Below, piece after piece: positions 48,364 to 64,000 of a DNA stretch of 64,000 bases. The notes under the pieces are model-generated. The model did not search any database, was not told the origin of the DNA, and saw only the letters and a list, made by a program, of their open reading frames with translations. Positions within the stretch are counted from its first letter, which is position 1, and every line of letters starts with the position of its first letter. The DNA comes from Clostridia bacterium (GTDB lineage: Bacteria > Bacillota > Clostridia > Oscillospirales > CAG-272), in assembly GCA_017463125.1 (NCBI GenBank), contig JAFTPV010000018.1:62001-126000 (forward strand), given 5' to 3'. The position numbers and the translations under genes are program-made.

Positions 48364-49788
48364 ATGGAAAATAGTAAAAAATACCTCGGTATTGATATAG
48401 GTACGACGTCGATGAAGGCTGCCGTGTTTGACAAGGACGGAAACAGACTTGCTCTGCGTAACGTTGATTACACACTTGATACCGACTCTGTAACCGGTTA
48501 CATAGAATTCCCCGCTGAAAAATACGTTGAGATGTGCAAGACTGTAATAGACGAGCTTGTTGCCGAGTGCGGACCTATTGATGCGCTCTCTGTTGACACA
48601 CAGGGCGAAACTATTATTTTTACGGACGAGGCAGGTACACCGCTCTGTCCGGCTATCGTATGGCTTGATAACAGAGCAGGTGATGAGGCTGACGAGATAA
48701 AGGCTAAATTCGGTAATGAGCTGGTTTATAACGTGACGGGGCAGCCGGAAATTACTGCGGGTTGGCCTGCGTCAAAGGTGCTTTGGCTCAAGAAAAATGC
48801 CCCCGAGGTGTTCGCAAGGGTAAAGAAGATATTTATGCTTGAGGACTATATTCTCTATGGCCTTACCGGTAATTTTGTTACCGAGCCCACTATCCAGTCC
48901 TCTACTATTTATTATGATGTTGTAAACGGTAAGTGGTGGCAGGATATGCTCGACTTTATCGGTATTGACAAGGCGCAGCTTCCCAAGGTAGTTAAATCCG
49001 CATCGGATGTTGGTGAATACAAGGGAATTAAGGTCGTCAGCGGTATGCTTGACCAGATTGCCGGAACGCTTGGTGCGGGAGTTACCGACGAGAGCCGCAT
49101 CAGCGAGATGACGGGTACTATTATGGCTATCTGTGTTATGACAGATAAAATGCCGAAATATAATCCCGACAGTATAATTCCGTGTCATCTCCACGCAGTT
49201 GACGGTAAATATTGCTTGATACTTTGGTCGTCTACCGCAGGTATGGCGCTCAAGTGGTTTAAGAATAATTTTGCGGAGAATATGTCCTTTAGAGAGCTTG
49301 ACGAGCTTGCTGAAAAAATCGCTCCCGGATCTGACGGACTGACAATGTTACCTTATTTCACAGGCTCCACGATGCCTAAATACAATCCTGATGCAAGAGC
49401 CGCATTTGCAGGACTCAATCTTTCCCACACCCGCGCTCATTTCGCAAGAGCTATAATGGAAGCTATCGCGTTTACCTTAAAGCAGAATCTTGAGTACGTC
49501 GGTGAGGACGCTATAAAGGAAATAAGAATTACTGGCGGCGGTGCCTCCAGCCCTCTTTGGTCAACTATTAAGTCCGACGTTACCGGAAAGGTTCTCAAGA
49601 CTCTTTCGGAAAGTGAAACGGCATGTCTCGGTACGGCGCTTGCGGCGGCTGTTGGCATTGGCGATTTCGCCTCTTTAAAGGAAGCGGTTGACTCTGTCGT
49701 TAAGATTAAAAAGGTATACGAGCCAACAGGCGCAGATTATACCGAGGCCTATAACGCTTATAACAATCTTGACAAAATCCTGAATTAA
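48364..49788 (+). CDS. FGGY-family carbohydrate kinase (xylulokinase-like)
   Basis: A 474-residue cytoplasmic sugar kinase. The N-terminal phosphate-1 motif is LGIDIGTTSMKAAVFD (about 8-23). VDTQGETIIF and IVWLDNRAGDEA match the sugar-contact region. The C-terminal adenosine motif is ITGGGASSPLWSTIKSDV (about 385-402). GMLDQIAGTLGAG holds the catalytic Asp. Overall it is closest in pattern to xylulokinases, but FGGY members also phosphorylate ribulose, erythritol, erythrulose or glycerol, so the substrate is open. The GGAGG ribosome binding site is at 48356-48360. It is first in a nine-gene run and has the DeoR repeats in its leader. It would trap the incoming sugar or ketose as a phosphate ester. 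Confidence 0.88.
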   Translation: MENSKKYLGIDIGTTSMKAAVFDKDGNRLALRNVDYTLDTDSVTGYIEFPAEKYVEMCKTVIDELVAECGPIDALSVDTQGETIIFTDEAGTPLCPAIVWLDNRAGDEADEIKAKFGNELVYNVTGQPEITAGWPASKVLWLKKNAPEVFARVKKIFMLEDYILYGLTGNFVTEPTIQSSTIYYDVVNGKWWQDMLDFIGIDKAQLPKVVKSASDVGEYKGIKVVSGMLDQIAGTLGAGVTDESRISEMTGTIMAICVMTDKMPKYNPDSIIPCHLHAVDGKYCLILWSSTAGMALKWFKNNFAENMSFRELDELAEKIAPGSDGLTMLPYFTGSTMPKYNPDARAAFAGLNLSHTRAHFARAIMEAIAFTLKQNLEYVGEDAIKEIRITGGGASSPLWSTIKSDVTGKVLKTLSESETACLGTALAAAVGIGDFASLKEAVDSVVKIKKVYEPTGADYTEAYNAYNNLDKILN

Positions 49789-49839
49789 TTCGGGGCAGAA
49801 TGGTTTTTATTAAATTCATATAGAGAAAGGCAAAAAAAG

Positions 49840-50544
49840 ATGTTAAAGAATTACAAAATTTCGGCACCTTATTTCGAGATTGGCCCCAAGTGCTTTATGT
49901 GGGGCGAGAGAATGCTAAAGCTCGCAAAAGCGGTTGACAAGATCGCAATGAAGTACGACCTTGACGTTATTCTCACACCTCAGTACACCGACATCAGACT
50001 CCTTGCAGAGAACACCGAGCGTGTACATATTTACGCACAGCACATGGATTCTCTCGTTCCCGGACGCGGACTTGGCTCGGTTCTTCCCGAGGCAGTTAAG
50101 GAAGCTGGCGCTGTCGGCGTTATGCTTAACCATGCCGAAAAGAAGCTCACGCTTGATGAGATTAAGGCTACTATCGCGAGAGCTGACGAGGTTGGTCTTG
50201 CAACCATCGTTTGCGCTGACTCTGTCGAGGAAATTAAGCAGGTAGCACTCCTTGCTCCCAATCTCATCGTTGCAGAGCCCACCGAGCTTATCGGCACGGG
50301 TGTTGCCAGCGATATGGGATACGTAAGAGATACCATTGCGGCAGTTCGCGCAATTAACCCTGATATAATGGTTCTTCAGGGCGCGGGTATTTCCGGACCC
50401 GACGACGTTGCAAACGTTATCAGAGCGGGCGCACAGGCTACAGGATGCACCAGCGGCGTTATGAAGGCTGCTGATCCCGAGGCTGCGGCAGAGGAGATGC
50501 TCTACACGCTTCGTAAAACTTGGGACGAGGTGAACGGTAAGTAA
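49840..50544 (+). CDS. Triosephosphate-isomerase-family protein (archaeal-like short form)
   Basis: A 234-residue (beta/alpha)8 barrel similar to the short archaeal triosephosphate isomerases. Recognisable parts are YAQHMDSLVPGRGLGSVLPEAVKEAGAVGVMLNHAEKK with the electrophilic His region, VAEPTELIGTG with the catalytic Glu, and the phosphate loop VLQGAGISGPDDV plus GCTSGVMKA. The N-terminal N-x-K motif of true enzymes is altered (FEIGPKCF): the Lys is kept, the Asn is not. The core tpiA gene should be elsewhere. TIM-family paralogues of this kind isomerise tetrulose phosphates in erythritol pathways, so a C4 or other small ketose phosphate is a reasonable guess. The stop overlaps the SIS gene start by one base. 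Confidence 0.8.
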   Translation: MLKNYKISAPYFEIGPKCFMWGERMLKLAKAVDKIAMKYDLDVILTPQYTDIRLLAENTERVHIYAQHMDSLVPGRGLGSVLPEAVKEAGAVGVMLNHAEKKLTLDEIKATIARADEVGLATIVCADSVEEIKQVALLAPNLIVAEPTELIGTGVASDMGYVRDTIAAVRAINPDIMVLQGAGISGPDDVANVIRAGAQATGCTSGVMKAADPEAAAEEMLYTLRKTWDEVNGK

Positions 50545-51137
50545 TGGAAAACAGCTTGAATTACGCATTTGACACCTTCCGTATTGAAGCCGAATCTCTT
50601 GCCGAGACCGCAAAGGTTCTTGACAGAGAAGAGGTAAGACGCGCAGTTGAGGTGCTTGCGAAGGCGGAGAGAATTGCGGCTGCAGGCTGCGGTCACTCCG
50701 GAATTGCCTGCCGTCATTTTGCACACCTTATGTGCTGTGCGGAGCGTCCTGCGAGATTTCTCTCGCCTGCGGAGGCGGTTCACGGCGGTCTTGGCTGTAT
50801 GAAAAAGGGTGACGTTATGGTTCTTGCTTCCAGAGGAGGTAAGACCGACGAGCTTATGACTATCATAGATGTTTGTAAGACCAAGGGCGTTACTATCATC
50901 GGCGTTACCGAAAACCTTTCCTCACCTCTTGCAACCGAGGCTGATATAGTCCTTGCAATGAAGGTTACGAAGGAATGTGATAAATATAACTGCCAGGGAA
51001 CTACCAGCTTTGCGGTAACCTCGGCAATATTTGATGCGCTTCAGGCAGCTCTTATCGAATATACCGGATATCAGAAGATGGACTTTGCTCTTATTCATCC
51101 GGGCGGAGCCGTTGGCAAGCGTCTTAACAACAAGTAA
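50544..51137 (+). CDS. SIS-domain sugar-phosphate isomerase
   Basis: A 197-residue single SIS domain without CBS repeats. The fold core has AAAGCGHSGIACRHFAHLM (about 46-64), RFLSPAEAVHGGLGCMKKGDVMVLASRGGKTDEL (about 70-104) with the conserved SPAEAVHG, IIGVTENLSSPLATEADIVL, and the C-terminal IHPGGAVGKRL. This pattern is that of KdsD/GutQ-type arabinose-5-phosphate isomerases, which interconvert ketose and aldose phosphates; the missing CBS domains point to a catabolic rather than an LPS role. The start codon overlaps the preceding stop by one base (TAATG), so it is translationally coupled to the TIM-family gene. The actual sugar is unknown. Confidence 0.86.
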   Translation: MENSLNYAFDTFRIEAESLAETAKVLDREEVRRAVEVLAKAERIAAAGCGHSGIACRHFAHLMCCAERPARFLSPAEAVHGGLGCMKKGDVMVLASRGGKTDELMTIIDVCKTKGVTIIGVTENLSSPLATEADIVLAMKVTKECDKYNCQGTTSFAVTSAIFDALQAALIEYTGYQKMDFALIHPGGAVGKRLNNK

Positions 51138-51173
51138 TCAAAAAAATTTTTACATAAAAGGAGAACAAAAAAC

Positions 51174-51800
51174 ATGGAATTTAAGGTTTATCAGAAAGAA
51201 ATTGAGCTTCAGTCAAGAGGTTGGATCCCCACCTTCCACGACGTAACAAGCGACATTCTTCACATTGTGGAGGCATCCGGCATCAAGAACGGTACCGTTT
51301 GCATCGCATCTCACCACACCACCTGCTCGGTAATGGTTCAGGAGTGCTCTCACGACATTGACTCCTTCGATCTCGAGTACCTTCAGCACGACCTTCTCGA
51401 CATAATGAGAAAGCTTATCCCCGATTTTGCGGAAGAGCATCAGTACCGTCATCCCGGTCCTATCCACTCTCAGTTCGGCAGATATGTAAACGAGCCCGGT
51501 GACTATACATCTATGAATACTGACGGTCACCTTCGTTCCTGCTTCTTCGGCAGAAGCGAAACTATGACTATCAAGGACGGCGTTCTTGACGGCGGTGAGT
51601 TCGCTCACGTTTATTTCATCGACTGGGACCACGTAAGAGCTCGCAGAAGACAGCTTAACGTTACCGTTATGGGTACTGCTGATGCTGTCGAGGATAGAAA
51701 GTATAATAACGGCGAGGTTGTAAACACCCTTCGTAAGTACACCGATGAGGAGAAGGCTTACGACGTACACTACGAGCTTAACTGGAAGACCGGCAGATAA
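51174..51800 (+). CDS. YjbQ/UPF0047-family protein, extended form
   Basis: A 208-residue protein of the YjbQ family, longer than the usual 130-140. Conserved parts are IASHHTTCSVMVQE (about 41-54; HTT motif), NTDGHLRSCFFGRSETMTIKDG (about 112-133) and the C-terminal RARRRQLNVTVMG. Extra sequence lies between the two motifs and after residue 170. Family members show weak thiamine-phosphate synthase activity in E. coli suppressor work, but the true function is unknown. Its place between a sugar-phosphate isomerase and an aldolase suggests it takes part in the same pathway. GGAGAA precedes the ATG; a gap of 36 bases separates it from the SIS gene. Confidence 0.84.
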   Translation: MEFKVYQKEIELQSRGWIPTFHDVTSDILHIVEASGIKNGTVCIASHHTTCSVMVQECSHDIDSFDLEYLQHDLLDIMRKLIPDFAEEHQYRHPGPIHSQFGRYVNEPGDYTSMNTDGHLRSCFFGRSETMTIKDGVLDGGEFAHVYFIDWDHVRARRRQLNVTVMGTADAVEDRKYNNGEVVNTLRKYTDEEKAYDVHYELNWKTGR

Positions 51801-51809
51801 TATAAGAAA

Positions 51810-52496
51810 ATGAGAATTTTACTTGATACGGCAAATCTTGACGACATTCGTTATTTCAATACCTATTATCCCATCGAGGGCGTTACCACGAACCCCACCA
51901 TTCTTTCAAAGGAGGGCGGTGACCCGATAGTACAGCTTAAGGCTATCCGTCAGATAATCGGAGAGGATAAGGAGCTGCACGTTCAGGTTACCGAAACCGA
52001 ATTTGAAAAAATAATAGAGGAGGCAAGACTTCTTGTTGACTGCCTCGGTATCAACACATTCGTCAAGATCCCCGTAACAGACGTGGGTCTTCGTGTTACT
52101 AAATATCTGTCCGATAGAAATATAGGCGTTACCGTTACGGCGGTTCTTACGGCTGCACAGGCGATGCTTGCGTCAAATGCGGGCGCATCTTACGTTGCCC
52201 CCTACATCAGCCGTTCTGAGAATCTGTGCGCGGACGGTGTGGGTACGGTTTCCGATATCGCAAAGATATTTAACGTATCGGGAACCGATACGCAGATTTT
52301 AGCCGCCAGCTTCAAGACCGCAAAGGAGGTTCTTGACGTTGCGGTTGAAGGGTGTCATTCAGCTACTATCGGCTCCGGTATAATGAAAATGCTTCTTTCA
52401 CATACCACGACAGATACCTCTATCCTTGGCTTCGAGCGTGATTGGAAGGAAGCCTTCGGAGATACCACTTTACTGAAACTGCTTAAAAATAAATAA
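51810..52496 (+). CDS. Transaldolase-family aldolase, fructose-6-phosphate aldolase type
   Basis: A 228-residue class I aldolase of the small transaldolase family. The Schiff-base lysine is Lys86 in FVKIPVT, with Asp6 (LLDTANL) and EGVTTNPTILSKEG (about 23-36). The two residues that tell fructose-6-phosphate aldolase from transaldolase, Gln59 and Tyr131 in E. coli FSA, are matched by Gln59 and Tyr132 here (APYISR), where transaldolases have Glu and Phe. It should therefore cleave a ketose phosphate to glyceraldehyde 3-phosphate and a dihydroxyacetone-like product, or do the reverse. It begins 9 bases after the YjbQ-family stop. Confidence 0.88.
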   Translation: MRILLDTANLDDIRYFNTYYPIEGVTTNPTILSKEGGDPIVQLKAIRQIIGEDKELHVQVTETEFEKIIEEARLLVDCLGINTFVKIPVTDVGLRVTKYLSDRNIGVTVTAVLTAAQAMLASNAGASYVAPYISRSENLCADGVGTVSDIAKIFNVSGTDTQILAASFKTAKEVLDVAVEGCHSATIGSGIMKMLLSHTTTDTSILGFERDWKEAFGDTTLLKLLKNK

Positions 52497-52524
52497 CCAA
52501 AATACTAAAAAAGGAGCTATTTTA

Positions 52525-53856
52525 ATGGCAACATTGGTAATTATGCCCCGTCAGGGACAAAGCGTTGAAAGCTGCATTATTACCGCTTTTAACAAAAAGG
52601 TTGGCGACACCGTTGAGGCAGGCGAGGTTCTTTTCTCCTACGAAACGGATAAGTCATCCTTTGACGAGCCCGCACCTGTAGCGGGTAAGATCCTTGCCAT
52701 CTTCAGAGAAGAGGGCGACGACGTCCCTTGTCTTGAAAACGTACTTGTAATCGGTAACGATGGAGAGGATTTCTCTGAATTCATACCTAAATCAGAGGCA
52801 GAAGCCACTCCTGCCGCGCCTGTGGCAGAATCGGTACCCGAGGCGCCTATGGCAGAGGCTGCTCCCGTAGCAGAGGCTATCGCTACTACAAGCGCAGGCG
52901 GAGATTTTGCTATCTCCCCGAGAGCAAGACTCCTTGCTGAAAAGACTCACGCTGATCTTCTTAAGGCTGTTCCCACAGGTCCTAACGGCAGAATAATCGA
53001 AAGAGATGTTCAAAGATTAGTTGATATGGGTCTTACCGTATCTCCTGCGGCGAAGGATGCTTATTCCTCTGCGGTTGAGGGCTCCGGCATTAGCGGAAAG
53101 GTAGTTCTTGCTGATCTTAACGCGCCTGCGGCGCAGGAGGCGGCTCCCGCAGCACCTGCTACAGAGTATGAGGACGTTAAGCTTCCCAATATCCGTAAGG
53201 TTATTGCAAAGTCTATGCACCAGTCCCTTTCTACTATGGCACAGCTCACTCTAAACACCTCCTTCGATGCTACAAAGCTTATGGCTCTCAGAGCATCGCT
53301 TAAGGCGGGGGCAGAGAAAATGGGCATCGGAAACATCACCCTTAACGATATGGTGCTCTTCGCAGTATCTCGCGTGCTTCTTAATCACAAGGACCTTAAT
53401 GCGCACTATCTCGACGACACTATGAGATATTTCACAAACGTAAATCTCGGTGTTGCGGTTGATACGCCCAGAGGACTTATGGTTCCTACCGTATTTGCGG
53501 CTAACAAGATGACTCTTAACGAGCTTTCAAAGTCCGCAAAGGTGGTTATCAGCGCGGCGCAGGAGGGAACTATCAACCCCGATCTTCTTAAGGGTGGCTC
53601 GTTCACTGTAACAAATCTCGGTTCTCTTGGTATCGAGAGCTTCACTCCCGTTATCAATCCTCCCCAGACCGGTATTCTCGGCGTTGGCACTATCACCAAG
53701 AGAATTAAGGAAGTAAACGGTGAGGACGTAACCTATCCCGCAATGGGTCTTTCTCTCACGTTTGACCACAGAGCTCTTGACGGTGCTCCTGCGGCAAAAT
53801 TCCTCAAGGAGCTTGTAGCAGCACTTGAGAACTTCGACCTTCTTCTCACAAAGTAA
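52525..53856 (+). CDS. 2-oxoacid dehydrogenase E2 (dihydrolipoamide acyltransferase)
   Basis: A 443-residue E2 core of a pyruvate-dehydrogenase-type complex. One lipoyl domain (about 1-80) has its lipoylated Lys43 in YETDKSS. An Ala/Pro/Glu-rich linker (about 90-125) leads to a peripheral-subunit-binding domain (about 131-172; ISPRARLLAEKT and GPNGRIIERDVQRL). A second, weaker copy follows (about 176-207; SPAAKDAYSSAVEGSGISGKVVLADL). After another linker comes the catalytic domain (about 225-443) with the FDHRALDGAPAAKFL active site (His and Asp). It lies 28 bases after the aldolase gene with an AAAAGGAG ribosome binding site. Confidence 0.93.
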   Translation: MATLVIMPRQGQSVESCIITAFNKKVGDTVEAGEVLFSYETDKSSFDEPAPVAGKILAIFREEGDDVPCLENVLVIGNDGEDFSEFIPKSEAEATPAAPVAESVPEAPMAEAAPVAEAIATTSAGGDFAISPRARLLAEKTHADLLKAVPTGPNGRIIERDVQRLVDMGLTVSPAAKDAYSSAVEGSGISGKVVLADLNAPAAQEAAPAAPATEYEDVKLPNIRKVIAKSMHQSLSTMAQLTLNTSFDATKLMALRASLKAGAEKMGIGNITLNDMVLFAVSRVLLNHKDLNAHYLDDTMRYFTNVNLGVAVDTPRGLMVPTVFAANKMTLNELSKSAKVVISAAQEGTINPDLLKGGSFTVTNLGSLGIESFTPVINPPQTGILGVGTITKRIKEVNGEDVTYPAMGLSLTFDHRALDGAPAAKFLKELVAALENFDLLLTK

Positions 53857-53874
53857 ACAGGAGGTCGGAAAGCA

Positions 53875-55233
53875 ATGTATGATTTAATAATTCTCGGCGG
53901 CGGTCCTGCCGGTTATAACGCGGCTGAAAGAGCGGCTCACGGCGGACTCAAAACCCTTGTAATTGAAGAAAGAGCACTCGGTGGTGTTTGCTTAAACGAG
54001 GGCTGTATTCCTACAAAAACTCTTCTTTATTCCGCAAAAATCTACGATTATGCAAAGCACAGCGCTGATTACGGTGTAACCTTCGGTTCAGCGTCTATCG
54101 ACCATAATTTCGTCGTTGAGCGTAAGAACAAGGTTGTAAAGCAGCTCGTTTCGGGAATCGGCGCAAAGCTTAAAAAGGCAGGCGTTGAGGTTGTAAACGC
54201 TACAGCTGCTATTAAAGAGAGAAACGCAGACGGCTTTGTAGTAACTGCGGCTGATAAGGAGTACGTTGGTAAGCAGCTTCTTATCTGCACAGGCTCTTCT
54301 GCCGCAATTCCTCCTATCGACGGACTTAAGGACTCTCTTGCATCAGGCTTCGCTCTTACAAACCGCGAGGTTCTTGATCTCAAAGAGATTCCCAAGACCA
54401 TCGTTGTAGTAGGTGGCGGTGTTATCGGTCTTGAGATGGCGTCCTATTTTAACTCCGTAGGCTCTAAGGTCTACGTTCTTGAGATGCTTGACCATATCGC
54501 AGGTGCTACCGACGGTGAGATTTCCAAGATGCTCCAGAAGGAGTACGCATCTCGCGGTGTTGAGTTTATCCTTGGTGCAAAGGTTACCTCTATTAAGGAT
54601 AAGGCCGTTTCTTATGAGAAGGACGGCAAGGTATCAAAGCTTGATGCCGACTACGCTCTCGTTTCTATCGGACGCCGTCCGAGAACGCAGGGAATAGGCT
54701 GTGAGAACATCGGTCTTAAGCTTGAGAGAGGCGCTATCGTTACCAACGAGTACGGTAAGACAAACGTTCCGGGTGTTTGGGCGGCAGGTGACGTAAACGG
54801 CAAGTCTATGCTTGCTCATACCGCTTATCGCGAGGGCGAGGTTTGTATAAATAATATCCTCGGCAAGAAGGACAGAATCAATTATAATTCCATTCCTTCG
54901 GTTATTTACACCAATCCCGAGGTTGCTTCTGTTGGCGAGACATCCGAGTCCTGCAAGGCGAAGGGAATCGACGCAAAGATCGATACCGTTACCCTTAAGT
55001 ACAGCGGCCGTTACGTTGCCGAGAACGAGCATGGAAACGGAGTTGTTAAAATCATCACCGACAAGGCCCATAATAACATCATAGGCGTACATATATACGG
55101 CACCTACGCGTCTGAGATCATCTACGGCGCAGCTATGATGGTCGAAACCGAGATGCGTGTTGCCGACGTTCAGAAGCTCGTATTCCCGCACCCCACCGTT
55201 TGTGAGGTTATCAGGGAAGCAATGTTTATGTAA
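53875..55233 (+). CDS. lpdA: Dihydrolipoyl dehydrogenase (E3)
   Basis: Flavoprotein that reoxidises the lipoyl group of E2 and reduces NAD+. The 452-residue chain starts with the FAD motif LIILGGGPAGYNAA (about 4-17). The redox disulfide is GGVCLNEGC with Cys39 and Cys44. The NAD motif VVVGGGVIGLEMAS lies near 181-194, GVWAAGDVNG is the second FAD segment, and the catalytic His is in FPHPTVCEV near the C-terminus. There is no N-terminal lipoyl domain. It follows E2 by 18 bases with GGAGG before its ATG, and is followed by a hairpin and the fused E1 gene. Confidence 0.96.
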   Translation: MYDLIILGGGPAGYNAAERAAHGGLKTLVIEERALGGVCLNEGCIPTKTLLYSAKIYDYAKHSADYGVTFGSASIDHNFVVERKNKVVKQLVSGIGAKLKKAGVEVVNATAAIKERNADGFVVTAADKEYVGKQLLICTGSSAAIPPIDGLKDSLASGFALTNREVLDLKEIPKTIVVVGGGVIGLEMASYFNSVGSKVYVLEMLDHIAGATDGEISKMLQKEYASRGVEFILGAKVTSIKDKAVSYEKDGKVSKLDADYALVSIGRRPRTQGIGCENIGLKLERGAIVTNEYGKTNVPGVWAAGDVNGKSMLAHTAYREGEVCINNILGKKDRINYNSIPSVIYTNPEVASVGETSESCKAKGIDAKIDTVTLKYSGRYVAENEHGNGVVKIITDKAHNNIIGVHIYGTYASEIIYGAAMMVETEMRVADVQKLVFPHPTVCEVIREAMFM

Positions 55234-55242
55234 TATAACCGC

Positions 55243-55268
55243 AGGGGACGCCGCCCCCGACGTCCCCT
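55243..55268 (+). other. Intercistronic hairpin between E3 and E1
   Basis: AGGGGACG (55243-55250) pairs with CGTCCCCT (55261-55268), with a C-rich 10-base loop. No T tract follows. It may stabilise the mRNA or reduce read-through. Confidence 0.5.
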
Positions 55269-55301
55269 TAAAATGCAAATAAAATAAGGAGTAAATAAAT
55301 T

Positions 55302-57788
55302 ATGCCTAAGAGTCAATATGTTGACCCCGGTAAAGCCTTTGAGGCAGGCTATATCCATTTTGAAGATATTCCCGTTTGCCAATATAATAAGACTCTCGCC
55401 GAGGAAAAGAAAATCTATACGAAGGACGATTTCCTCCGTATCTATCGTGACATGGCTATCATTCGTGAGTTTGAAACCATGCTTAACGATGTTAAAACCA
55501 AGTCTAACTACAACGGAGTAGAGTATAACAACCCCGGTCCCGCGCACCTTTCCATAGGTCAGGAGGCGTCTGCTGTCGGTGAGGCTTACAGCCTTGATAT
55601 CAACGACTTCTCCTTCGGTTCTCACAGAAGTCACGGTGAAATTCTTGCTAAGGGTCTTTCCTCCATTCATAAGCTTACTGACGAAGAGGTTTATGATATA
55701 ATGAAGGAGTTCCTCGGCGGCGCCGTTCTCTCTGTCGTTGAGAAGCACATGAACGCAGGCGGCAACGTTAAGGAGCTTGCTATAAACTTCCTTCTTTACG
55801 GCGCACTTGCTGAGATATTCGCCCGTAAGACCGGCTTTAACAGGGGTCTTGGCGGTTCTATGCACGCATTCTTCATCCCCTTCGGACTTATGCCCAACAA
55901 CGCAATAGTTGGCGCATCTGCTCCTATCGCACTTGGTGCAGCTCTTTATAAGAGATCTAACAACAAGCCCGGTATCATCATCTCCAACTGCGGCGACGGT
56001 GCAACCGGACGTGGTCCTGTTCTCGAGTCCTTTAACTTCGCTTCTATGGACCAGATTACAAAGCTCTGGGGCATGGACGGCAAGTATTCGGACGCAGGCC
56101 TTCCCATTCTCTTTAACGTATTTAACAATCATTACGGTATGGGCGGTCAGACTCGCGGAGAGACTATGGGCTTTGATATGGTTGCACGTCTTGGCGCAGG
56201 CTTCAACCCCTCGCAGATGCATGCAGAGCGTGTAAACGGCTACGATCCTCTCGCAGTTATCGACGCAGTATCTCGTAAGAAGGAGCTTCTCCTTGCAGGT
56301 AAGGGTCCTGCGCTTCTTGACGTTGTTACATACCGTGTATCCGGTCACTCTCCCTCCGACTCTTCCACCTACCGTACCGCAGAGGAGATCGAGGCTTGGA
56401 AGGCAGCAGATCCTATCCTCGCGTTCAAGAATAAGCTCGGAGGCGGCAAGATCGCTACCGAGAACGAGATTGCAAAGATGCACGAGGATATCACCGCTCG
56501 CATGACCGAGGTTATGAAGCTTGCTATTAACGACGATATCTCTCCCAGAATGGATCTTAACAAGGAGCCCGACGCTATTTCATCCATCATGTTCTCCAAC
56601 CAGAAGGTTGTATCTATGGAGCCCGAGCGCAAGGCAGAGATGATTATGCCCAAGGAGGAGTGCCCCAGAGTTAAGGAAATCAAGGGCAAGGTTCGTACAG
56701 CAACAGACGCAAACGGCAAGCCTGTTTCCAAGATGAAGATGTACAACGTTTGCGACGCGCTCTTCGAGCCGATAATCGACAAGTTCTACGATGACCCCAC
56801 CCTTATCGCATACGGTGAGGATAATCGTGACTGGGGCGGAGCATTCGGTGTTTATAAGAAGATGACCGAGGCTGTTCCTTATCATAGATTCTTCAACTCT
56901 CCTATTTCCGAGTCTGCAATCGTTGGCTCTGCAGTAGGTTACGCAATGTGCGGTGGTCGCGCTATCGTTGAGCTTATGTACGCTGACTTCATCGGCTGTG
57001 CAGGTGACGAGATATTCAACCAGATGGCTAAGTGGCAGGCAATGAGCGCAGGTATCCTTAAGATGCCCATCACTCTTCGTGTTTCCGTTGGTTCTAAGTA
57101 CGGCGCACAGCATTCTCAGGACTGGACAGCACTCTGTGCTCATATCCCAGGTCTTAAGGTCGTATTCCCCGCAACTCCCACTGATGCGAAGGGACTTATG
57201 ACATCAGCTCTTGACGGCACCGACCCTGTTGTATTCTTCGAGAGCCAGAGAATTTACGGATTTGGCGAGCAGTTCAATAAGGACGGCGTTCCCGAGGGTC
57301 ACTTCGAGATACCCTTCGGCGAGCCTGACATCAAGCGCGAGGGTAAGGACGTTACTATTCTTACTATCGGTGCGGTTCTTTACAGAGCTCTTGAGGCTGC
57401 AAAGATTCTTGAGGAGAAGTACGGTGTATCGGCTGAAATTATCGACGCTCGTTCTATCGTACCCTTCAACTATGAGAAGGTTATCGAGTCTGTTAAGAAG
57501 ACGGGTAAGATTATTCTCGTTGGTGACGCTTGCGAGAGAAACTCTGTAATGAGAGATATGGCTTCCAACATTACCGAAATGTGCTTCGATTACCTCGACG
57601 GCCCTGCGGTTGTTGTTGGTTCTCGTAACTGGATAACTCCCGCCTTCGAGCTTGAGAAGTCCTTCTTCCCCCAGGCAGATTGGATTATCGACGCTCTTCA
57701 CGAGAAGATTATGCCTCTTCCCGGACACGTTCCGACCAACAACTTTACCGATATTGAAAAGGTAGAGAGAGCAAAGCTCGGTCTTTAA
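55302..57788 (+). CDS. 2-oxoacid dehydrogenase E1 with alpha and beta parts fused
   Basis: An 828-residue thiamine-diphosphate-dependent decarboxylase. The alpha part (about 1-430) has [28 protein letters not shown], the GGSMHAFF segment, and the TPP motif beginning [14 protein letters not shown] and ending [11 protein letters not shown] linker (about 430-480) joins it to the beta part (about 485-828) with [49 protein letters not shown] and [11 protein letters not shown]. In most bacteria alpha and beta are separate genes or, in the unrelated AceE type, a single chain of another family; this fused alpha-beta type is less common. It lacks a marker that settles pyruvate versus branched-chain or acetoin substrates. 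GGAG is 10 bases before the ATG. Confidence 0.9.
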
Positions 57789-57802
57789 TCTATAAAAACT
57801 TG

Positions 57803-57832
57803 TGGCACATCGGGCAAATACCCGATGTGCCA
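57803..57832 (+). other. 12-bp perfect hairpin upstream of lipoate ligase
   Basis: 57803-57814 pairs without mismatch to 57821-57832 (6-base loop). Only TTATAGG follows, so termination would be poor. It may be a 3' mRNA stabiliser for E1 or a leaky attenuator that lowers expression of lplA. Confidence 0.6.
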
Positions 57833-57851
57833 TTATAGGAATAAGGGGTTT

Positions 57852-58823
57852 ATGAAATTTTTATTATTACACTCAACCGACCCATATCACAACTTGGCTG
57901 TCGAAGAATACATGTTCCGAAAAACGCAGGATAATATATTTATTCTTTGGCAGAACGACAAAACTGTCGTTATCGGCAAAAATCAAAATATAAATTGTGA
58001 GCTTAATTTTGATTTTGTGAATAAGAACGGAATCAAGGTTGCAAGGCGTATTACAGGCGGCGGCGCAGTCTACCATGACTTTGGTAATCTTAATTACAGC
58101 TTCATTTCATCGACAGAAAAAGAGGGCATAGATTTTGCCTATTTTACAAAGCCCATAATTGAGGCACTCAATGCCCTCGGAGTTGATGCAAGACTGACCG
58201 GCAGGAACGATATTGAGGTTGAAGGGAAGAAAATTTCCGGAAATGCCCAGTATTCAAAAAACGGCAGAACTCTTCATCACGGAACACTGCTTTTTGATAC
58301 CGATTTATCTGTACTTTCATCAGCGCTTCACGTTGATGAGGAAAAAATCAAATCAAAAGCAATAAAATCCACAAGATCAAGAGTCACAAACCTTAAATCT
58401 CTTATTCCTATAAAGAATATTAACGAATTTATAGATTATCTTTGCTGCTATGTTATTAATAAATATTCTCCGGAGATAATTTCCGAGCCGTCTGATTTGT
58501 ATATTACGGAATTAGAAGAGAGAAATAAGTCAGAGGAATGGCTTTTCCCGAAAAACTCCTATCTTTCTACCTTCACGGTGAGAAAAAAGAAAAAATACGA
58601 CTTTGGAATAGTTGATATTGAACTTTCCATGAACGGTGATATAATCTCGGATATCAAAATTTACGGTGATTTCTTTGGTACAAAGGATGTAAGTGAGCTT
58701 TCGGAAAAAATATCAGGTAATAGCCTTGATTTAATCGATGAAATTCTAGAAAGCATTAACCTTTCAGACTATATACTTGGAATGACTGTTAATGAATTTT
58801 CCGAGCTTATAAAAAGAGGATGA
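57852..58823 (+). CDS. Lipoate-protein ligase
   Basis: A 323-residue LplA-type ligase that activates lipoate with ATP and attaches it to the E2 lysine. N-terminal FLLLHSTDPYHNLAVEEYMF and FILWQNDKTVVIGKNQN are followed by the RRITGGGAVYHDFGNLNYSFI signature (about 70-90) and a KISGNAQYSKNGRTLHHGTLLFDTDL segment (about 131-156). The C-terminal accessory domain (about 245-323) marks a full-length ligase. The start is the ATG at 57852 with AAGGGG before it; an ATG inside the upstream hairpin at 57825 is in frame but unlikely. Its place behind the E2-E3-E1 genes supports lipoylation of that complex. The gene is more AT-rich than the operon before it. Confidence 0.93.
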   Translation: MKFLLLHSTDPYHNLAVEEYMFRKTQDNIFILWQNDKTVVIGKNQNINCELNFDFVNKNGIKVARRITGGGAVYHDFGNLNYSFISSTEKEGIDFAYFTKPIIEALNALGVDARLTGRNDIEVEGKKISGNAQYSKNGRTLHHGTLLFDTDLSVLSSALHVDEEKIKSKAIKSTRSRVTNLKSLIPIKNINEFIDYLCCYVINKYSPEIISEPSDLYITELEERNKSEEWLFPKNSYLSTFTVRKKKKYDFGIVDIELSMNGDIISDIKIYGDFFGTKDVSELSEKISGNSLDLIDEILESINLSDYILGMTVNEFSELIKRG

Positions 58824-58841
58824 CAAAAATCATCCTCTTTT
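58812..58841 (+). terminator. Bidirectional terminator between lplA and the glycyl-radical operon
   Basis: AAAAGAGGATGA (58812-58823) pairs with TCATCCTCTTTT (58830-58841) with a 6-base loop. T tracts follow on both strands (TGTTTTAT rightward, TTTTTATAAG leftward), so it serves both convergent transcripts. Confidence 0.85.
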
Positions 58842-58844
58842 GTT

Positions 58845-60566
58845 TTATATAACCGTATGTCCCGATTTTCTCAAAAGCTCTTTAGCGTGTGCAATTTCCT
58901 CGTCTGTCGGAAGCTTTTCGGGCATTTTAGATGCGATGCCTAGGGACTTATATTTCGATTCCGAGTAATTGTGATACGGCAAAAGTCTTATCTTGGTAAT
59001 ATTCTTGATATTTTTTAAAAAATCCGCCATTTTTTCAATCTGCTCGGAATTATGTTCAGGAATATAAGGAATCCGTATTTCAATTTGCTTGCCGATGCTG
59101 TCAAGATACTTGAGATTTTCTATAATCAGCTTGTTTGATTTTCCCGTGCATCTGATATGTACGTCCTCGTCATACGCCTTAAAATCATAGAGAAAAACAT
59201 CGGTATAGGGAATCACTTTGTCAAGACTTTCACTAGGCACATAACCGCAGGTGTCAACTGCCGTATGAACGCCGTTTGCTTTTAACTCCTTTAATAGTTC
59301 GGCGCAAAAGTCAGCCCACATTAAGCATTCACCGCCCGAAAGGGTAACACCGCCGTCGGAATTATCAAAGAATTCCTTATCTTCAAGCAGGATTGGCAAA
59401 AGCTCGGAAACACTTACTTCCTTGCCATATTCCACACGCGCACCGCCAAGACAATCCGAAACACTAAAACCATTCTTTTGGCACTCACCGCAGCCTATGC
59501 ACTTATGCTCGTAAAATCCAACCTCATACTTTGCCGAAAGTCCCTCAGGATTATGACACCAAAGGCACCTAAGAGGGCAACCCTTAAAGAATACAGTTGT
59601 CCTTATTCCGTCACCGTCGTGAACGGCAAAGCGCTTTATTTCAAAGATTTTAGACTTCATTTTATTATTCCTTACCTTTTTGTTTCCCAAAGTTATACCT
59701 GCTGAAATCAAAATAAATGCGATTAAATACTGCCATTTGAATATATTTTCTGAAAGTAGTATTGCGCCAAAAATGCAGGCAAAAAGCGGCTCGGCAAATT
59801 TTATAATAAACATATTTGAAAGCTCGCAGGTTTTTAATATGTTATTCCAAAGAAGATAAGCCACCATAGAAGCGGTGCAAATGTATGTAAAGACCAAAAG
59901 ACTATCTAAATTAAAACTCAGGAAATCAGCGCCCATAATCAAAGCAACAAAAAGTAAAACGATACCGCCCGAAAGCTGAGATATTCCGGTTATCCAAAAG
60001 GGTGAATTGTTTTCAAGCGTCTTTTTGCTTAAAATACTTGCAACAACGGTACAAACAGAAGCAAGAATAATAAGAATATCACCGAAAGAAAAGCTAATAC
60101 CGCCGGGATTAAAGTTAATAGCAATAATTCCGAAAAAGCCTATAATAGCGCCGATTATCTTCCAAATACTATATGTTTCATTCTTAAAAAACAGAAAGGC
60201 GAAGCATACATATATTAAAGAACCCAGCTGTTTTATAAGAGCGGTTTTAGAGCTATCTGTGGAGCTTAATCCTATGTAGGTAAAGGCATAATGAAGAATT
60301 ATCGAAAACAGACCTATCAAAAGAATCATGCCGAAAGTTTTGATTTTTGGAGCCTTAATTTTATCTTTTTTCAAAAAGGCCATGAAACAGACGATAGCAC
60401 CGCAAAGTGCAAATCTTGTTCCCGCAAACATTAAAATGCTAGGAATATCACTTCCGTTTATTTCAAAGACTTCGTAACCTATCTTTACCATTGGGAATAA
60501 CGAACCCCAAAGCGCCATTACGAGAAGCGATAAAAAAAGTGTTCTTAAATTTAGTGTGCTTTTCAT
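58845..60566 (-). CDS. EamA transporter fused in frame to a glycyl-radical-enzyme activase
   Basis: One 573-residue frame encodes two proteins. Residues 1-302 are a ten-helix drug/metabolite transporter with two EamA halves. Residues 303-573 are a radical SAM activase that puts the glycyl radical on its partner enzyme: RFAVHDGDGIRTTVFFKGCPLRCLWCHNPEG with the CxxxCxxC cluster, then one CxxCxxCx9C auxiliary cluster site, and GGVTLSGGECLMW. Canonical activases have two auxiliary cluster motifs. The activase part begins at an ATG (59660) preceded by AAGGA eight bases upstream, so a free activase may also be made by internal initiation. The start overlaps the lactonase stop by four bases. No stop or frameshift lies between the two domains. 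Confidence 0.88.
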   Translation of the reverse strand: MKSTLNLRTLFLSLLVMALWGSLFPMVKIGYEVFEINGSDIPSILMFAGTRFALCGAIVCFMAFLKKDKIKAPKIKTFGMILLIGLFSIILHYAFTYIGLSSTDSSKTALIKQLGSLIYVCFAFLFFKNETYSIWKIIGAIIGFFGIIAINFNPGGISFSFGDILIILASVCTVVASILSKKTLENNSPFWITGISQLSGGIVLLFVALIMGADFLSFNLDSLLVFTYICTASMVAYLLWNNILKTCELSNMFIIKFAEPLFACIFGAILLSENIFKWQYLIAFILISAGITLGNKKVRNNKMKSKIFEIKRFAVHDGDGIRTTVFFKGCPLRCLWCHNPEGLSAKYEVGFYEHKCIGCGECQKNGFSVSDCLGGARVEYGKEVSVSELLPILLEDKEFFDNSDGGVTLSGGECLMWADFCAELLKELKANGVHTAVDTCGYVPSESLDKVIPYTDVFLYDFKAYDEDVHIRCTGKSNKLIIENLKYLDSIGKQIEIRIPYIPEHNSEQIEKMADFLKNIKNITKIRLLPYHNYSESKYKSLGIASKMPEKLPTDEEIAHAKELLRKSGHTVI

Positions 60567-61420
60567 TTTATTTCTCCAAATAAATAAGGGAGTCTTCCTA
60601 CTGTTTTAGATTTTTTTACAATTGTAAATCCTGCGTTTTTGTCATCTTTAATATCTGCCCCAAAGCTAGCTGTTGTGATAGCTAATATATCCATATTTTC
60701 ACCGCAAAAAGAGCAGCTTGTGGGAATTTGTGTTGGTATATCTATGTAGTCACATATTTCAAGAGAAGATGTGTCAACCACAGCAATATGCCCGCCGCCC
60801 CAACATCCGACGTACAAACGTCCATCCTTACCAATAGTAAATCCGTCAACACCTAGAACCGCAATTTGTCTGCCCGAATATGTAATAGCTCCACTTGCTT
60901 TATCAAAACTATATTCCTTGATAATTTGCGTATCGCTATCGGTATGATAAAATTTGGTTTCATCTATGGACCACTCCATACCGTTTGATAAGAGTAGCCC
61001 GTCTAGCAACACTCTTACGCTTCCGTCAGAGGAAATTCGATATAATTTGCCGTCGATCTTATCGGATATTCCTTTTCGCTTTTCGCTTTGCGTGCCAACG
61101 TATATAGCACCGTCAGGACCAACCTTCATATCGTTAGCATGCTTTATCTCGAATTTTGTGTGGTCATAAATCTGTGATATGGAACCCGAGTCGTTCAGGA
61201 TATGAACACCGCCTTCGTGGGATATAATAAGACGATTATTAATATCAAAGGCAAATGATGAGATACCAAATGGAAGAGCACGAACACTCACTTTATCGGT
61301 TGTAAAATCGTAAGTGCAGATTTCATTTCCAAATCCATTGGTAAAATATAGCTTTTGCTCTTTTTCGCTCCATATCGGACCTTCGCCGATAATACAACGT
61401 TTGTCTGTCAAAATTTTCAT
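60563..61420 (-). CDS. SMP-30/gluconolactonase-family protein
   Basis: A 285-residue six-bladed beta-propeller lactonase without a signal peptide. The metal ligands of the family are present: Glu in IIGEGPIWSE (about residue 13), Asn in KHANDMKVGPDG, Asn in LLSNGMEWS and Asp in LGVDGFTIGKDG. It would hydrolyse a sugar-acid lactone or similar cyclic ester in the cytoplasm. It overlaps the upstream esterase gene and the downstream fusion gene by four bases each (ATGA), so translation is coupled throughout. In this context it probably opens a lactone made or needed by the glycyl radical enzyme pathway; the substrate is unknown. Confidence 0.88.
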   Translation of the reverse strand: MKILTDKRCIIGEGPIWSEKEQKLYFTNGFGNEICTYDFTTDKVSVRALPFGISSFAFDINNRLIISHEGGVHILNDSGSISQIYDHTKFEIKHANDMKVGPDGAIYVGTQSEKRKGISDKIDGKLYRISSDGSVRVLLDGLLLSNGMEWSIDETKFYHTDSDTQIIKEYSFDKASGAITYSGRQIAVLGVDGFTIGKDGRLYVGCWGGGHIAVVDTSSLEICDYIDIPTQIPTSCSFCGENMDILAITTASFGADIKDDKNAGFTIVKKSKTVGRLPYLFGEIK

Positions 61421-62115
61421 TTTTTTACTATTTGTAAGTACGCATTAAAGTAACGCTTACCAAACTCACGGTAGGATACGGAATTAAAATGAATACCGTC
61501 ATCCTTGCATTTAAGACCTTCGGCACTTACAAATGCTCCGTAGTCAGCTGCTAATTTTTCAAGAATCGTATTTATTTCCTCAAAATATCTGCATCTTCCG
61601 TCTTGATATTCACCTACAAAATCTCCTAAAGCACCGATTATTATGGGGATATCATCCGATAGATCAAGCTCTTTTTTCAAGGTATCTATTGTATTCTTGA
61701 AGCGTTCTGCGTATTTTTTTACGTCAGATAAGTCAATACTGTCATTTTCGCCTTGGTGCCAGAGAATACCGACAATTTCGGAGCTTCTTTGCGCAAGCCT
61801 TGCTTGATTTACCGCATTGTCAAACAGAATCTCGTCCGGCTGCCACTCGGAGATAGACGTTCCCCCATCGGCGCAGGGAATTAGCCCAACCTTCTCATTA
61901 AAGTATTTTGCGTACTCGTCGGCAAAGCTTGCCGCAAGACCGACACCGCTATGAAAATCACCCCATATCTTTCTGTCGGGATTTATCGGCTCTGACATAG
62001 GAATAAATCTACCGTTTCTGAGCATAAAGCAGTTGGGGTTTACAATTTCGGGTACTTCGCCAAAATCTCCGCGCCCCGCCATATTGGATTGCCCTATCAT
62101 AAGAAAAGATTTCAT
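61417..62115 (-). CDS. SGNH/SASA-family carbohydrate esterase
   Basis: A 232-residue hydrolase of the sialate O-acetylesterase-like (SASA/DUF303) group. The block I motif is MIGQSNMAGRG with nucleophile Ser10. GGTSISEWQPDE and ILWHQGEND follow, and the Asp-His pair is in CKDDGIHFNSVSYREF near residue 205. There is no signal peptide, so it should act in the cytoplasm on an imported acylated sugar. It is second in the operon: its start shares one base with the glycyl radical enzyme stop (TAATG), and it overlaps the lactonase by four bases. Deacetylation of the substrate before or after radical cleavage is an inference. Confidence 0.87.
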   Translation of the reverse strand: MKSFLMIGQSNMAGRGDFGEVPEIVNPNCFMLRNGRFIPMSEPINPDRKIWGDFHSGVGLAASFADEYAKYFNEKVGLIPCADGGTSISEWQPDEILFDNAVNQARLAQRSSEIVGILWHQGENDSIDLSDVKKYAERFKNTIDTLKKELDLSDDIPIIIGALGDFVGEYQDGRCRYFEEINTILEKLAADYGAFVSAEGLKCKDDGIHFNSVSYREFGKRYFNAYLQIVKK

Positions 62116-64000
62116 TATACAAGTCCCTCTGCCTGACGGATAAATCCGTCCTGTTCTTTCTTATTTATATTGTTCCAGAGTACGTTCCAGCCGCAAACAC
62201 GTATTTGCAGATCCTCGTATTTCTCAGGGTGCTTTTGTGCGTCTCGGAGTGTCTCGGCATCAAAAACGTTGATATGAATTGCATGACCGCCCCGCTTTCT
62301 GAATGTGGTGACAAGTCCGTACATAGCTTCAAGTCCGTCATCGCCTTGAACGGCAGAGGGCAGGAGTCCGAGATCCAGCGCCGCATCGCTTGTAAATTCG
62401 GTTGCATCAATTTTTGTAGCCGAGAGTATAGCCGCAGTTGCGCCATCGCGGTTTTGTCCCATAGATGCAGAAACGTTTTTGGAAAGCTCCTCTCCGATAA
62501 GTCTGCCATTTGCCGACGATGCGGTTTTATCTGCCATTGTGTAAGACATTCTTGCAACGTGGAAGCCGCAACCCCATTTTCCGCCTCTTTTGGGAGAGGT
62601 CGGTCTGCCCATAACATTCTTTGCGATAAAGGAAGTCAAATCTTTTGCAAAAGAGTCGGGAACTTCCTTGTTGTTTCCGTATTTTTCTTTGTCTGCAAGC
62701 AGTTTTTTGCGGAATATATCATGTCCCTCGTAGTTTTTATCAAGAATTTCGACAAACTCAGAGAGTGTAAGCTCTTTTTTGTCGTAAACGTACTTTTTAA
62801 GCATAGTCAGCGAGTCAACAATGTCAGCAAGGAAACCAAACTGTACAGATGATGCGGTTTTTGTACCGCCCTCCAGGACGTCTTTGCCGTTATCGACGGC
62901 TTTTTTTATTGTTCCCGAGAACATAGACAAAGGATTTATATACGAAAGATGATCCTCAAAGCTATTTACCGTTTCAATAACCTTATTTATATGATAAAGA
63001 AGAATTCTCTTGTATTCATCATATAATTTCTCAAACGTAGTGTAGTATTCAATGGAAGGAACACCGTCCATATATTTAATAGCGGTTACACCGTCGCATC
63101 CCTCGTGAAGAGCCTGTTCAAGAGGCTTCAAAAGGTTGAAATAGTTCATTCCGCCGCCAAAGGAGCCGGGTGTAGAATATTCGTAACAACCTTTTACTAC
63201 TGCGAGCCTTGCTTCCTCTTCGGTCGCACCTGCGTTCATAAGAGCTGCACGAATAGTTTCATCACAAACAAATACGATGCAGTTGTTTCCGCGACGTATC
63301 ATATCAAGCGCTTTGAAAACAAAATCCTTAGGAGTATTTTCCGCAAGCTTTATCTGAATTTTGGGATTGTAAATTCCCATCTTGTCATAAACGTCAAGGA
63401 ATAGGTAAGAAAGCTCGTTTATTTCGGTTGTACCGTCAGCCTTTGTGCCTCCGAGGTAAACAGGCTGGTTCCAGTAGTTTCCGATTGCGGTAAACTGCAA
63501 GAAGAAGTAGGCAAGGGTAGTGCGGATCTCCTCTTCGGTTACACCTCTTTCAAGATCGCTCTTATAAAGACCGTATAACTGCCTATCAATATTGGAAAGT
63601 GAACGCACCTGAAGGCAGTCAATATGCTCGCTTATCATAAAGTATATATAAACAAGTAGTAATGCCTCGTAAAAGCTACTTGGAGGGTTCTGCTTAAGAT
63701 TATTTAACGCTTTTGCAAGTTTTTCAGATCCCATAGTTTTGTGTGCCAAATTCTCAAGTCTTGACAAAAAGTCGATAAAAGCAGAGTAGCTGTATTTTAC
63801 AACATCGTAAAATTCTTGCTTTTCGGGGTATTTATTTGTTACCGCCTTTTCACTGACCTCTGCAAGAATTCCTGAAAATCCAAGGGTGAAGAGTCTATCA
63901 AAATCGGGAACGCTATGGTCAAAATCTGGCCAGATCGTACAAATAGAGGCATTTGTGTATTTATCCATTTCGTCAAGAACGTCGGGAATCTTCTCTCTGA
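62115..64000 (-). CDS. Glycyl radical enzyme, C-terminal part (5' end outside window)
   Basis: A pyruvate-formate-lyase-like enzyme using a protein-based glycyl radical. The frame is open to the window edge (R-E-K-I-P-D-V-L-D-E precedes the Met at 63968), so it begins upstream; about 628 residues of a typical 750-850 are seen. The radical Cys is in VVKGCYEYSTPG (codon near 63186-63188). One Cys followed by x-Glu marks dehydratases and decarboxylases, not pyruvate formate-lyase, which has two adjacent Cys. The glycyl loop near the C-terminus reads QIRVCGWNVLW (Gly codon near 62190), with Cys-Gly-Trp rather than the common x-Gly-Tyr. It leads a tightly coupled operon with an esterase, lactonase and transporter-activase fusion. 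The substrate class is not one I can name. Confidence 0.9.
   Translation of the reverse strand, partial: REKIPDVLDEMDKYTNASICTIWPDFDHSVPDFDRLFTLGFSGILAEVSEKAVTNKYPEKQEFYDVVKYSYSAFIDFLSRLENLAHKTMGSEKLAKALNNLKQNPPSSFYEALLLVYIYFMISEHIDCLQVRSLSNIDRQLYGLYKSDLERGVTEEEIRTTLAYFFLQFTAIGNYWNQPVYLGGTKADGTTEINELSYLFLDVYDKMGIYNPKIQIKLAENTPKDFVFKALDMIRRGNNCIVFVCDETIRAALMNAGATEEEARLAVVKGCYEYSTPGSFGGGMNYFNLLKPLEQALHEGCDGVTAIKYMDGVPSIEYYTTFEKLYDEYKRILLYHINKVIETVNSFEDHLSYINPLSMFSGTIKKAVDNGKDVLEGGTKTASSVQFGFLADIVDSLTMLKKYVYDKKELTLSEFVEILDKNYEGHDIFRKKLLADKEKYGNNKEVPDSFAKDLTSFIAKNVMGRPTSPKRGGKWGCGFHVARMSYTMADKTASSANGRLIGEELSKNVSASMGQNRDGATAAILSATKIDATEFTSDAALDLGLLPSAVQGDDGLEAMYGLVTTFRKRGGHAIHINVFDAETLRDAQKHPEKYEDLQIRVCGWNVLWNNINKKEQDGFIRQAEGLV

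Follow-up and report, generated by a model that had tools for sequence, protein, structure and literature searches.

A glycyl radical enzyme of a separate clade encoded with esterase, lactonase, EamA, and activase genes in a 6.4-kb cassette of a Clostridia bacterium

Glycyl radical enzymes (GREs) share a C-terminal RVxG[FWY] motif, as given in PMC11528403, and many of those abundant in the gut have unknown functions according to a review (PMC11574389). Among the described systems closest to the locus reported here, HypD requires Glu436 and His160, and the CxE motif marks eliminases (PMC7077986). GREs that act on cyclic sugars have precedent in YbiW and PflD, which open cyclic sugar phosphates (PMC12441222). 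We analyzed a 64,000-nucleotide stretch (hereafter, the window; G000:C20:62001-126000) of contig JAFTPV010000018.1 from a Clostridia bacterium, which carries at its right-hand end a GRE gene (locus L004 on the contig) packed together with genes for a SASA-family esterase, an SMP-30/gluconolactonase-type (SGL) lactonase, an EamA protein, and a GRE activase. The enzyme has an eliminase-like active site and falls in a clade of its own. With moderate confidence, we read the locus as an inducible catabolic cassette under AraC control, built around a radical eliminase whose substrate would be a sugar or sugar acid.

The genes occupy four minus-strand open reading frames (ORFs) at 58845-60566, 60563-61420, 61417-62115, and 62115-63998, and these coordinates confirm the overlaps of 4, 4, and 1 bases reported in a preliminary description of this DNA. 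The last ORF, the GRE gene, runs off the edge of the window; the contig supplies its complete form of 738 aa (L004:3616-5832, minus strand; window scale 62115-64331), so the ATG at 63968 is internal to the gene, and AAAGGAGA directly precedes its start ATG. Beyond it lies a divergent AraC gene (L004:5958-6746), which belongs to the same unit as the four minus-strand genes, and ribosomal protein genes come next. The features are as follows.

58814..58839, no strand: T-run hairpin that separates the converging ends of lplA and activase and marks the cassette's left edge
58829..64000, no strand: in-window part of the 6.4-kb cassette, which runs on to about window-scale 65223-65228 (absent in genome G085)
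58845..59660, minus strand: radical-SAM GRE-activase part, 271 aa, with its own ATG at 59660 (Pfam, alignment)
59661..60566, minus strand: EamA (drug/metabolite transporter) part of a 573-aa ORF, 302 aa (Pfam)
60563..61420, minus strand: SMP-30/gluconolactonase-type lactonase (PF08450), 285 aa (Pfam, alignment)
61417..62115, minus strand: SASA-family (PF03629) esterase, 232 aa (Pfam, structure-sequence alignment)
62115..64000, minus strand, gene end at window-scale 64331: GRE, C-terminal 627 of 738 aa in the window (Pfam, motifs)

All Pfam assignments were above cut-off: PF02901 (289 bits) and PF01228 (76 bits) in the GRE, PF03629 in the esterase, PF08450 in the lactonase (174 bits vs. a cut-off of 26.3, which makes it a member of the SMP-30 lactonases), and PF00892 with PF04055 in the EamA and radical-SAM parts. 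The GRE belongs to the glycyl radical superfamily, with Cys382 in a GCYE motif (Cys loop) and an RVCGW motif (glycyl loop); residue numbers here and below (H139, R243, K324, C382, E384, G714) are those of the full 738-aa protein. The earlier naming of a GCxE-type GRE, a SASA esterase, and an SMP-30 lactonase is thus borne out. So is the remark that the usual partners of known GRE systems are missing: reading the surrounding ORFs by eye, with no shell-family search run, we saw no shell-protein, choline, hydroxyproline, propanediol, or isethionate partners.

Comparison with a genome of the same genus (G085), which has no GRE match at E <= 1e-60, delimited the unit. The lplA and rplA flanks of G085 (84% and 88% identical) are continuous where the window's genome holds 6.4 kb. 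Similarity between the two ends at 58828 and restarts at 65228; the terminator on the rplA side is matched in inverted orientation from 65223, and the last codons of the AraC gene (stop at 65245) extend into the terminator shared with G085. The insert comprises the AraC, GRE, SASA, SGL, and EamA/activase genes and no other large ORF; its G+C content is 39.9%, vs. 43.8 ± 2.1% over 90 overlapping 6.4-kb windows of the sequence. Because the whole 6.4-kb unit is absent in G085 between the same flanks, we consider it a discrete cassette, and since only two genomes were compared, gain in one lineage and loss in the other are indistinguishable. Two more genomes of the genus, G022 and G129, are also without a GRE match but add nothing on the empty site, as the rplA region of G022 has other neighbors and the G129 contig is 3 kb long.

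With regard to its class, the window GRE scored 62-267 bits against NCBIfam full-length equivalogs with cut-offs of 994-1150. It fell short of the models for HypD (NF043068; 267 bits vs. 1100), CutC (TIGR04394; 181 bits vs. 1050), PFL (62 bits), HPAD (187), IAD (179), HpsG/HpfG (202/213), and Escherichia coli PflD (230), as well as of the PFL2-3 subfamily model (278 bits vs. 678) and the short GrcA models. The best match in PDB sequences was HypD (220 bits). A FastTree tree of 122 GREs, in which checks flagged long branches elsewhere, placed the enzyme inside a clade of 58 rows, supported at 100 (local SH-like) and distinct from HypD, CutC, YbiW, PflD, IAD, and PFL; glycerol/propanediol dehydratase, HpsG, IslA, HPAD, and BSS were compared by score or fold only. 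Scores, sequence search, and tree all agree with the earlier suggestion that the enzyme stands apart from the characterized classes tested here.

Within this clade, 19 rows form a subclade with 57-67% identity to the window GRE; 13 of its rows come from named metagenome-assembled genomes (MAGs), 11 of which name ruminant hosts. GRE matches at E <= 1e-60 occur in 30 of 146 genomes of the window's family and in none of the three other genomes of its genus, and at class level 15 of 291 genomes, with eight family codes and the window's genome included, match at E <= 1e-90. The GRE family is patchy, yet it is spread beyond a single lineage. Among the matches listed in open-licence PubMed Central literature, the cluster is not named, and we found no description of an eliminase-like GRE subfamily in this operon context or of SMP-30 or SASA enzymes linked operonically to a GRE.

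The active site was compared in an alignment of all 58 rows of the clade with six reference proteins (two HypD, CutC, YbiW, PflD, and IAD). Cys382 is present in all 58 rows, Glu384 in 55 (the others have 2 Asn and 1 Asp), His139 in 56 (2 gaps), and Gly714 in 57 (1 gap). His139 shares a column with HypD H160, so that the window GRE combines a CxE motif (GCYE) with a His in the HypD column, as expected of GRE eliminases; the CutC row has Asp at this column. The CxE motif alone is not decisive because the IAD decarboxylase row has it too. Arg243, Lys324, and Pro290 are each found in 58/58 clade rows and in none of the six references. The column of HypD Asp278 holds Gln241 in the window GRE, and Arg243, two residues further on, may therefore face the pocket. 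In an alignment to glycerol dehydratase (GDH), the profile consensus is Gly at the column of Asp447 (GDH numbering), which we take to be an active-site residue of glycerol/propanediol dehydratase, and by this residue the enzyme does not group with that class. An AlphaFold model of the L037 GRE (66% identical to the window's; pLDDT 92.1) was used for Foldseek, in which HypD, glycerol dehydratase, and propanediol dehydratase ranked first (TM 0.83-0.87, 22-26% identity). The CxE and His signature, more than the fold, favors elimination over C-C cleavage.

Two clade GREs (L050:10455-12698 and L091:8387-10642) are without the GCxE glutamate (L050: GCNN) and possibly have a different chemistry; they sit beside another GRE or an SGNH/EamA pair.

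The nearest solved relative of the esterase is 1zmb (acetylxylan-esterase-related), aligned along its length, presumably including the Ser/Asp-His positions; no export signal was apparent by eye. For the SGL protein it is regucalcin, with identical E, N, and D positions in the alignment that we take to be metal ligands. The EamA and activase parts form one 573-aa ORF, as had been described, in which an AAGG..AGGA stretch precedes the activase part's own ATG at 59660. Given this internal ATG behind a plausible ribosome site, the ORF may yield one protein or two. In the four other loci with adjacent EamA and activase genes (L039, L041, L047, and L051) the two are separate ORFs; the fusion was seen only in the window, and we give it little weight as a functional feature. 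The window activase has CxxxCxxC, and its ferredoxin segment is shortened, with cysteines for a single auxiliary cluster. This shortening is common to the window, L038, and L074 activases, and the other nine aligned sequences keep the longer segment.

Gene neighbors of clade GREs were labeled by BLAST to 18 query proteins, among co-directional genes lying between 1.5 kb upstream and 4.5 kb downstream of each GRE, so that unlike homologs can be missed. Among 52 clade members whose downstream sequence extends for 2.5 kb or more (two L050 GREs that share one operon were counted twice), activase was found in 32, EamA in 9 (10 with the window's fused copy, which the tally labeled activase), SGL in 3, and SASA/SGNH in 8. 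A divergent AraC gene lies within 600 bases in 30 of the 55 members with at least 0.9 kb upstream, and activase and AraC are the commonest partners in the clade. The subclade has 16 members with at least 2.5 kb downstream (activase 12, EamA 6, SGL 2, SASA 2); by Pfam, one further member (G196:C12) has a SASA domain 2 kb away. The same four partners, sought in other genomes as a mark of a new system, did not recur: all partners together were found only in the window among these 16 members (BLAST label).

The same kinds of partner recur near clade GREs in other combinations. The order is GRE-EamA-SGL-activase at L037, GRE-SASA-EamA-activase at L039 (with a 568-base gap after the GRE), GRE-SGL-SGNH-activase at the more distant L081, and GRE-SGNH-EamA-GRE-activase at L050. 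Partner genes can resemble each other more than the GREs do: compared with the window's SGL, the GRE-linked copies of L037, L081, and L071 show 54-61% identity, and the GREs of those loci 36-66% to the window's GRE; between L004 and L081, SGL identity is 61% and that of the GREs only 38-39%. Other genes near clade GREs encode GH2 (L005, L044), GH3 (L037), GH51 (L042), a GH29-type fucosidase (L064), Gfo/Idh/MocA (L005), a DUF4838 protein, an amidohydrolase, and a xylose-isomerase-like barrel. Because these carbohydrate-type neighbors were picked by eye, they are a lead and not a count. Lipoproteins near several GREs had been considered as sugar-binding and were dropped as evidence; the one tested (L041:12060-13637) had no Pfam match. 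A 663-669-aa protein directly follows the GRE in L046:10277-12286 and L073:10250-12241, with the activase next in L046; neither the 669-aa L046 protein nor its 663-aa L073 homolog matched a Pfam family over cut-off, and the former also had no PDB match.

To gauge chance, partner adjacency was counted in 25 GRE-carrying genomes, selected for that reason and totaling 60.7 Mb by rounded sizes. They hold 63 GRE matches at E <= 1e-60, a few of them outside the 58-row clade, and ~0.95% of their DNA lies within 3.5 kb of a match. Within this distance were 4 of 10 SGL genes (binomial P 1.7e-6; 7e-5 without the window's own locus), 4 of 42 SASA matches (7e-4; 7e-3), and at least 10 of ~118 EamA genes (2.3e-6; 1.9e-5), 9 of them downstream in the same direction; the EamA total is half of 235 matched stretches, and P was computed with 9. 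Of the four SGL genes, that of G051 (locus L071) lies upstream of the GRE and outside the operon. The gene linkage proposed earlier therefore holds in part: the full set was seen in the window alone, but SGL, SASA, and EamA genes lie near such GREs above chance in these 25 genomes.

In the order of steps that we propose for the cassette, presumably under AraC control, the activase would set a radical on Gly714 of the GRE, which would then be passed to Cys382. From a substrate of the sugar or sugar-acid type, the Cys382 thiyl radical would abstract the hydrogen of a carbon that bears a hydroxyl. Glu384, with His139 tuning it, may accept the hydroxyl proton, and a neighboring C-O bond would be eliminated, as in GRE dehydratases. 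The invariant Arg243/Lys324 pair could hold a carboxylate or several hydroxyls. Esterase and lactonase probably provide flanking hydrolytic steps around the elimination; the former would strip acyl groups, and the latter would open a lactone that may be substrate or product. The EamA protein may carry substrate in or product out. The pathway first put forward had been import of an acylated sugar or sugar-acid lactone, deacylation, ring opening, and radical dehydration or C-C cleavage; of these, elimination is favored by the CxE and His signature, and several other options stand beside import of an acylated lactone.

These arguments need to be weighed against several points. The cassette encodes neither a kinase nor a dehydrogenase or aldolase, most relatives lack the esterase and lactonase, and the substrate is predicted only as a class. 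YbiW (TM 0.86) and arylacetate decarboxylase (0.84) score about as high as the dehydratases, so that TM-scores hardly separate GRE classes and fold alone does not pick one. The 17 distinct neighbors scanned were picked by eye from 478 nearby ORFs, and 4 of them, including the L041 lipoprotein, matched no Pfam family at E <= 0.001. The genomes behind the enrichment had been selected because they carry the GRE, and the EamA total (~118) is an estimate.

A minor chance, to our judgment, belongs to the explanation that there is no joint pathway, with the GRE acting alone and the esterase, lactonase, and transporter as exchangeable passengers. The single occurrence of the complete set is consistent with it, as are the 10 of 16 subclade members without EamA, SGL, or SASA (BLAST label). 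However, SGL and EamA adjacency exceeds chance even without the window locus (P 7e-5 and 1.9e-5), the genes overlap by 1-4 bases, and the cassette is wholly present or absent between two genomes.

It is doubtful that the GRE forms a 2-deoxy-aldonolactone by dehydrating a cyclic aldose at C1/C2, with the SMP-30 enzyme then hydrolyzing this lactone and no redox cofactor needed; hydrogen would be taken from the hemiacetal C1, and the C2 hydroxyl or acyloxy group lost. By reaction logic, a diol-dehydratase reaction at a hemiacetal would formally yield a lactone. A lactone-forming GRE would explain the operonic lactonase without a dehydrogenase: SGL is operonic in three loci (window, L037, L081), no sugar dehydrogenase was recognized among the co-directional genes read, and the window-like SGLs beside the diverged GREs of L037, L081, and L071 fit it. 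However, an operonic SGL occurs in only 3/52 of the clade members whose downstream sequence is long enough, and a dehydrogenase may be encoded elsewhere. Its extension, a 2-deoxy-lactone activity moving between anaerobes as a 6.4-kb cassette within a large carbohydrate GRE clade (RxCGW loop, R243/K324), is an equally speculative prospect.

We think it improbable that the GRE opens the ring of an unphosphorylated anhydro sugar as a lyase, similar to the 1,5-anhydrohexitol-6-phosphate lyases YbiW and PflD. The activity of those enzymes on cyclic sugar phosphates (PMC12441222) and the shared His, Cys, and Glu columns would suit this. Against it stand 20-22% identity to YbiW/PflD, a different clade, and a cassette without phosphotransferase system (PTS) or kinase, and the fructose-6-phosphate-aldolase-like gene of the window lies outside the cassette, with matches in 3/11 GRE-bearing genomes and in the GRE-less G085. 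That a known class (decarboxylase, HypD, CutC, or PFL) was overlooked through distance is very improbable, since superfamily membership is what speaks for it, and the scores of 62-267 bits vs. full-length cut-offs of 994-1150 and the separate tree clade speak against it.

The aldolase-like gene is part of an operon at 48364-58823 that also encodes an FGGY kinase, a TIM-like protein, an SIS isomerase, YjbQ, E2, E3, an 828-aa ORF, and a lipoate ligase (lplA). The 828-aa ORF matches both pyruvate dehydrogenase (PDH) E1 alpha and E1 beta models, below cut-off. We considered this operon as part of the pathway and rejected it, given that G085 carries it without the cassette and that its aldolase has matches (E <= 1e-40) in only 3/11 of the GRE-bearing genomes searched (4/14 in all, G085 included).

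The window's genome also has a second GRE of the same clade (L005:324-6476) with AraC, an activase with a longer ferredoxin segment, and a GH2 glycosidase. Its pyruvate formate-lyase is split on the plus strand into a catalytic part (L006:7764-9929) and a separate 80-aa glycyl-radical-domain ORF (9953-10195); such a separate 80-aa ORF was also found in 9/9 other genomes chosen for short PFL frames (L140-L148), and the control L149 is intact. Genomes G056, G189, and G107 have 21-27 first-look GRE candidates each (not all scored), suggesting GRE expansion. A GRE fragment 42% identical to the window's (L054:2-931) lies in a MAG labeled Lentisphaeria, by transfer or binning error.

The analysis places sugar-type genes next to a GRE clade that has an active-site signature of its own, and if the lactone-forming explanation were true, anaerobes would hold a cofactor-free route from sugars to sugar acids. 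Compared with known systems, the window GRE has the barrel fold, CxE motif, catalytic His, and glycyl loop in common with HypD and the dehydratases, which top the Foldseek ranking. It differs from them in its 22-26% identity, in RVCGW where they have RVAGY, and in the new Arg243/Lys324, and unlike in the HypD setting, no microcompartment or proline genes were seen around it by eye. YbiW and PflD, described as sugar-ring GREs in PMC12441222, have the same Cys, Glu, and His columns but form a separate clade at 20-22% identity, with phosphorylated substrates delivered by PTS. Regucalcin-type lactonases and the 1zmb esterase align along their length with the window proteins, which here are operonic with a GRE.

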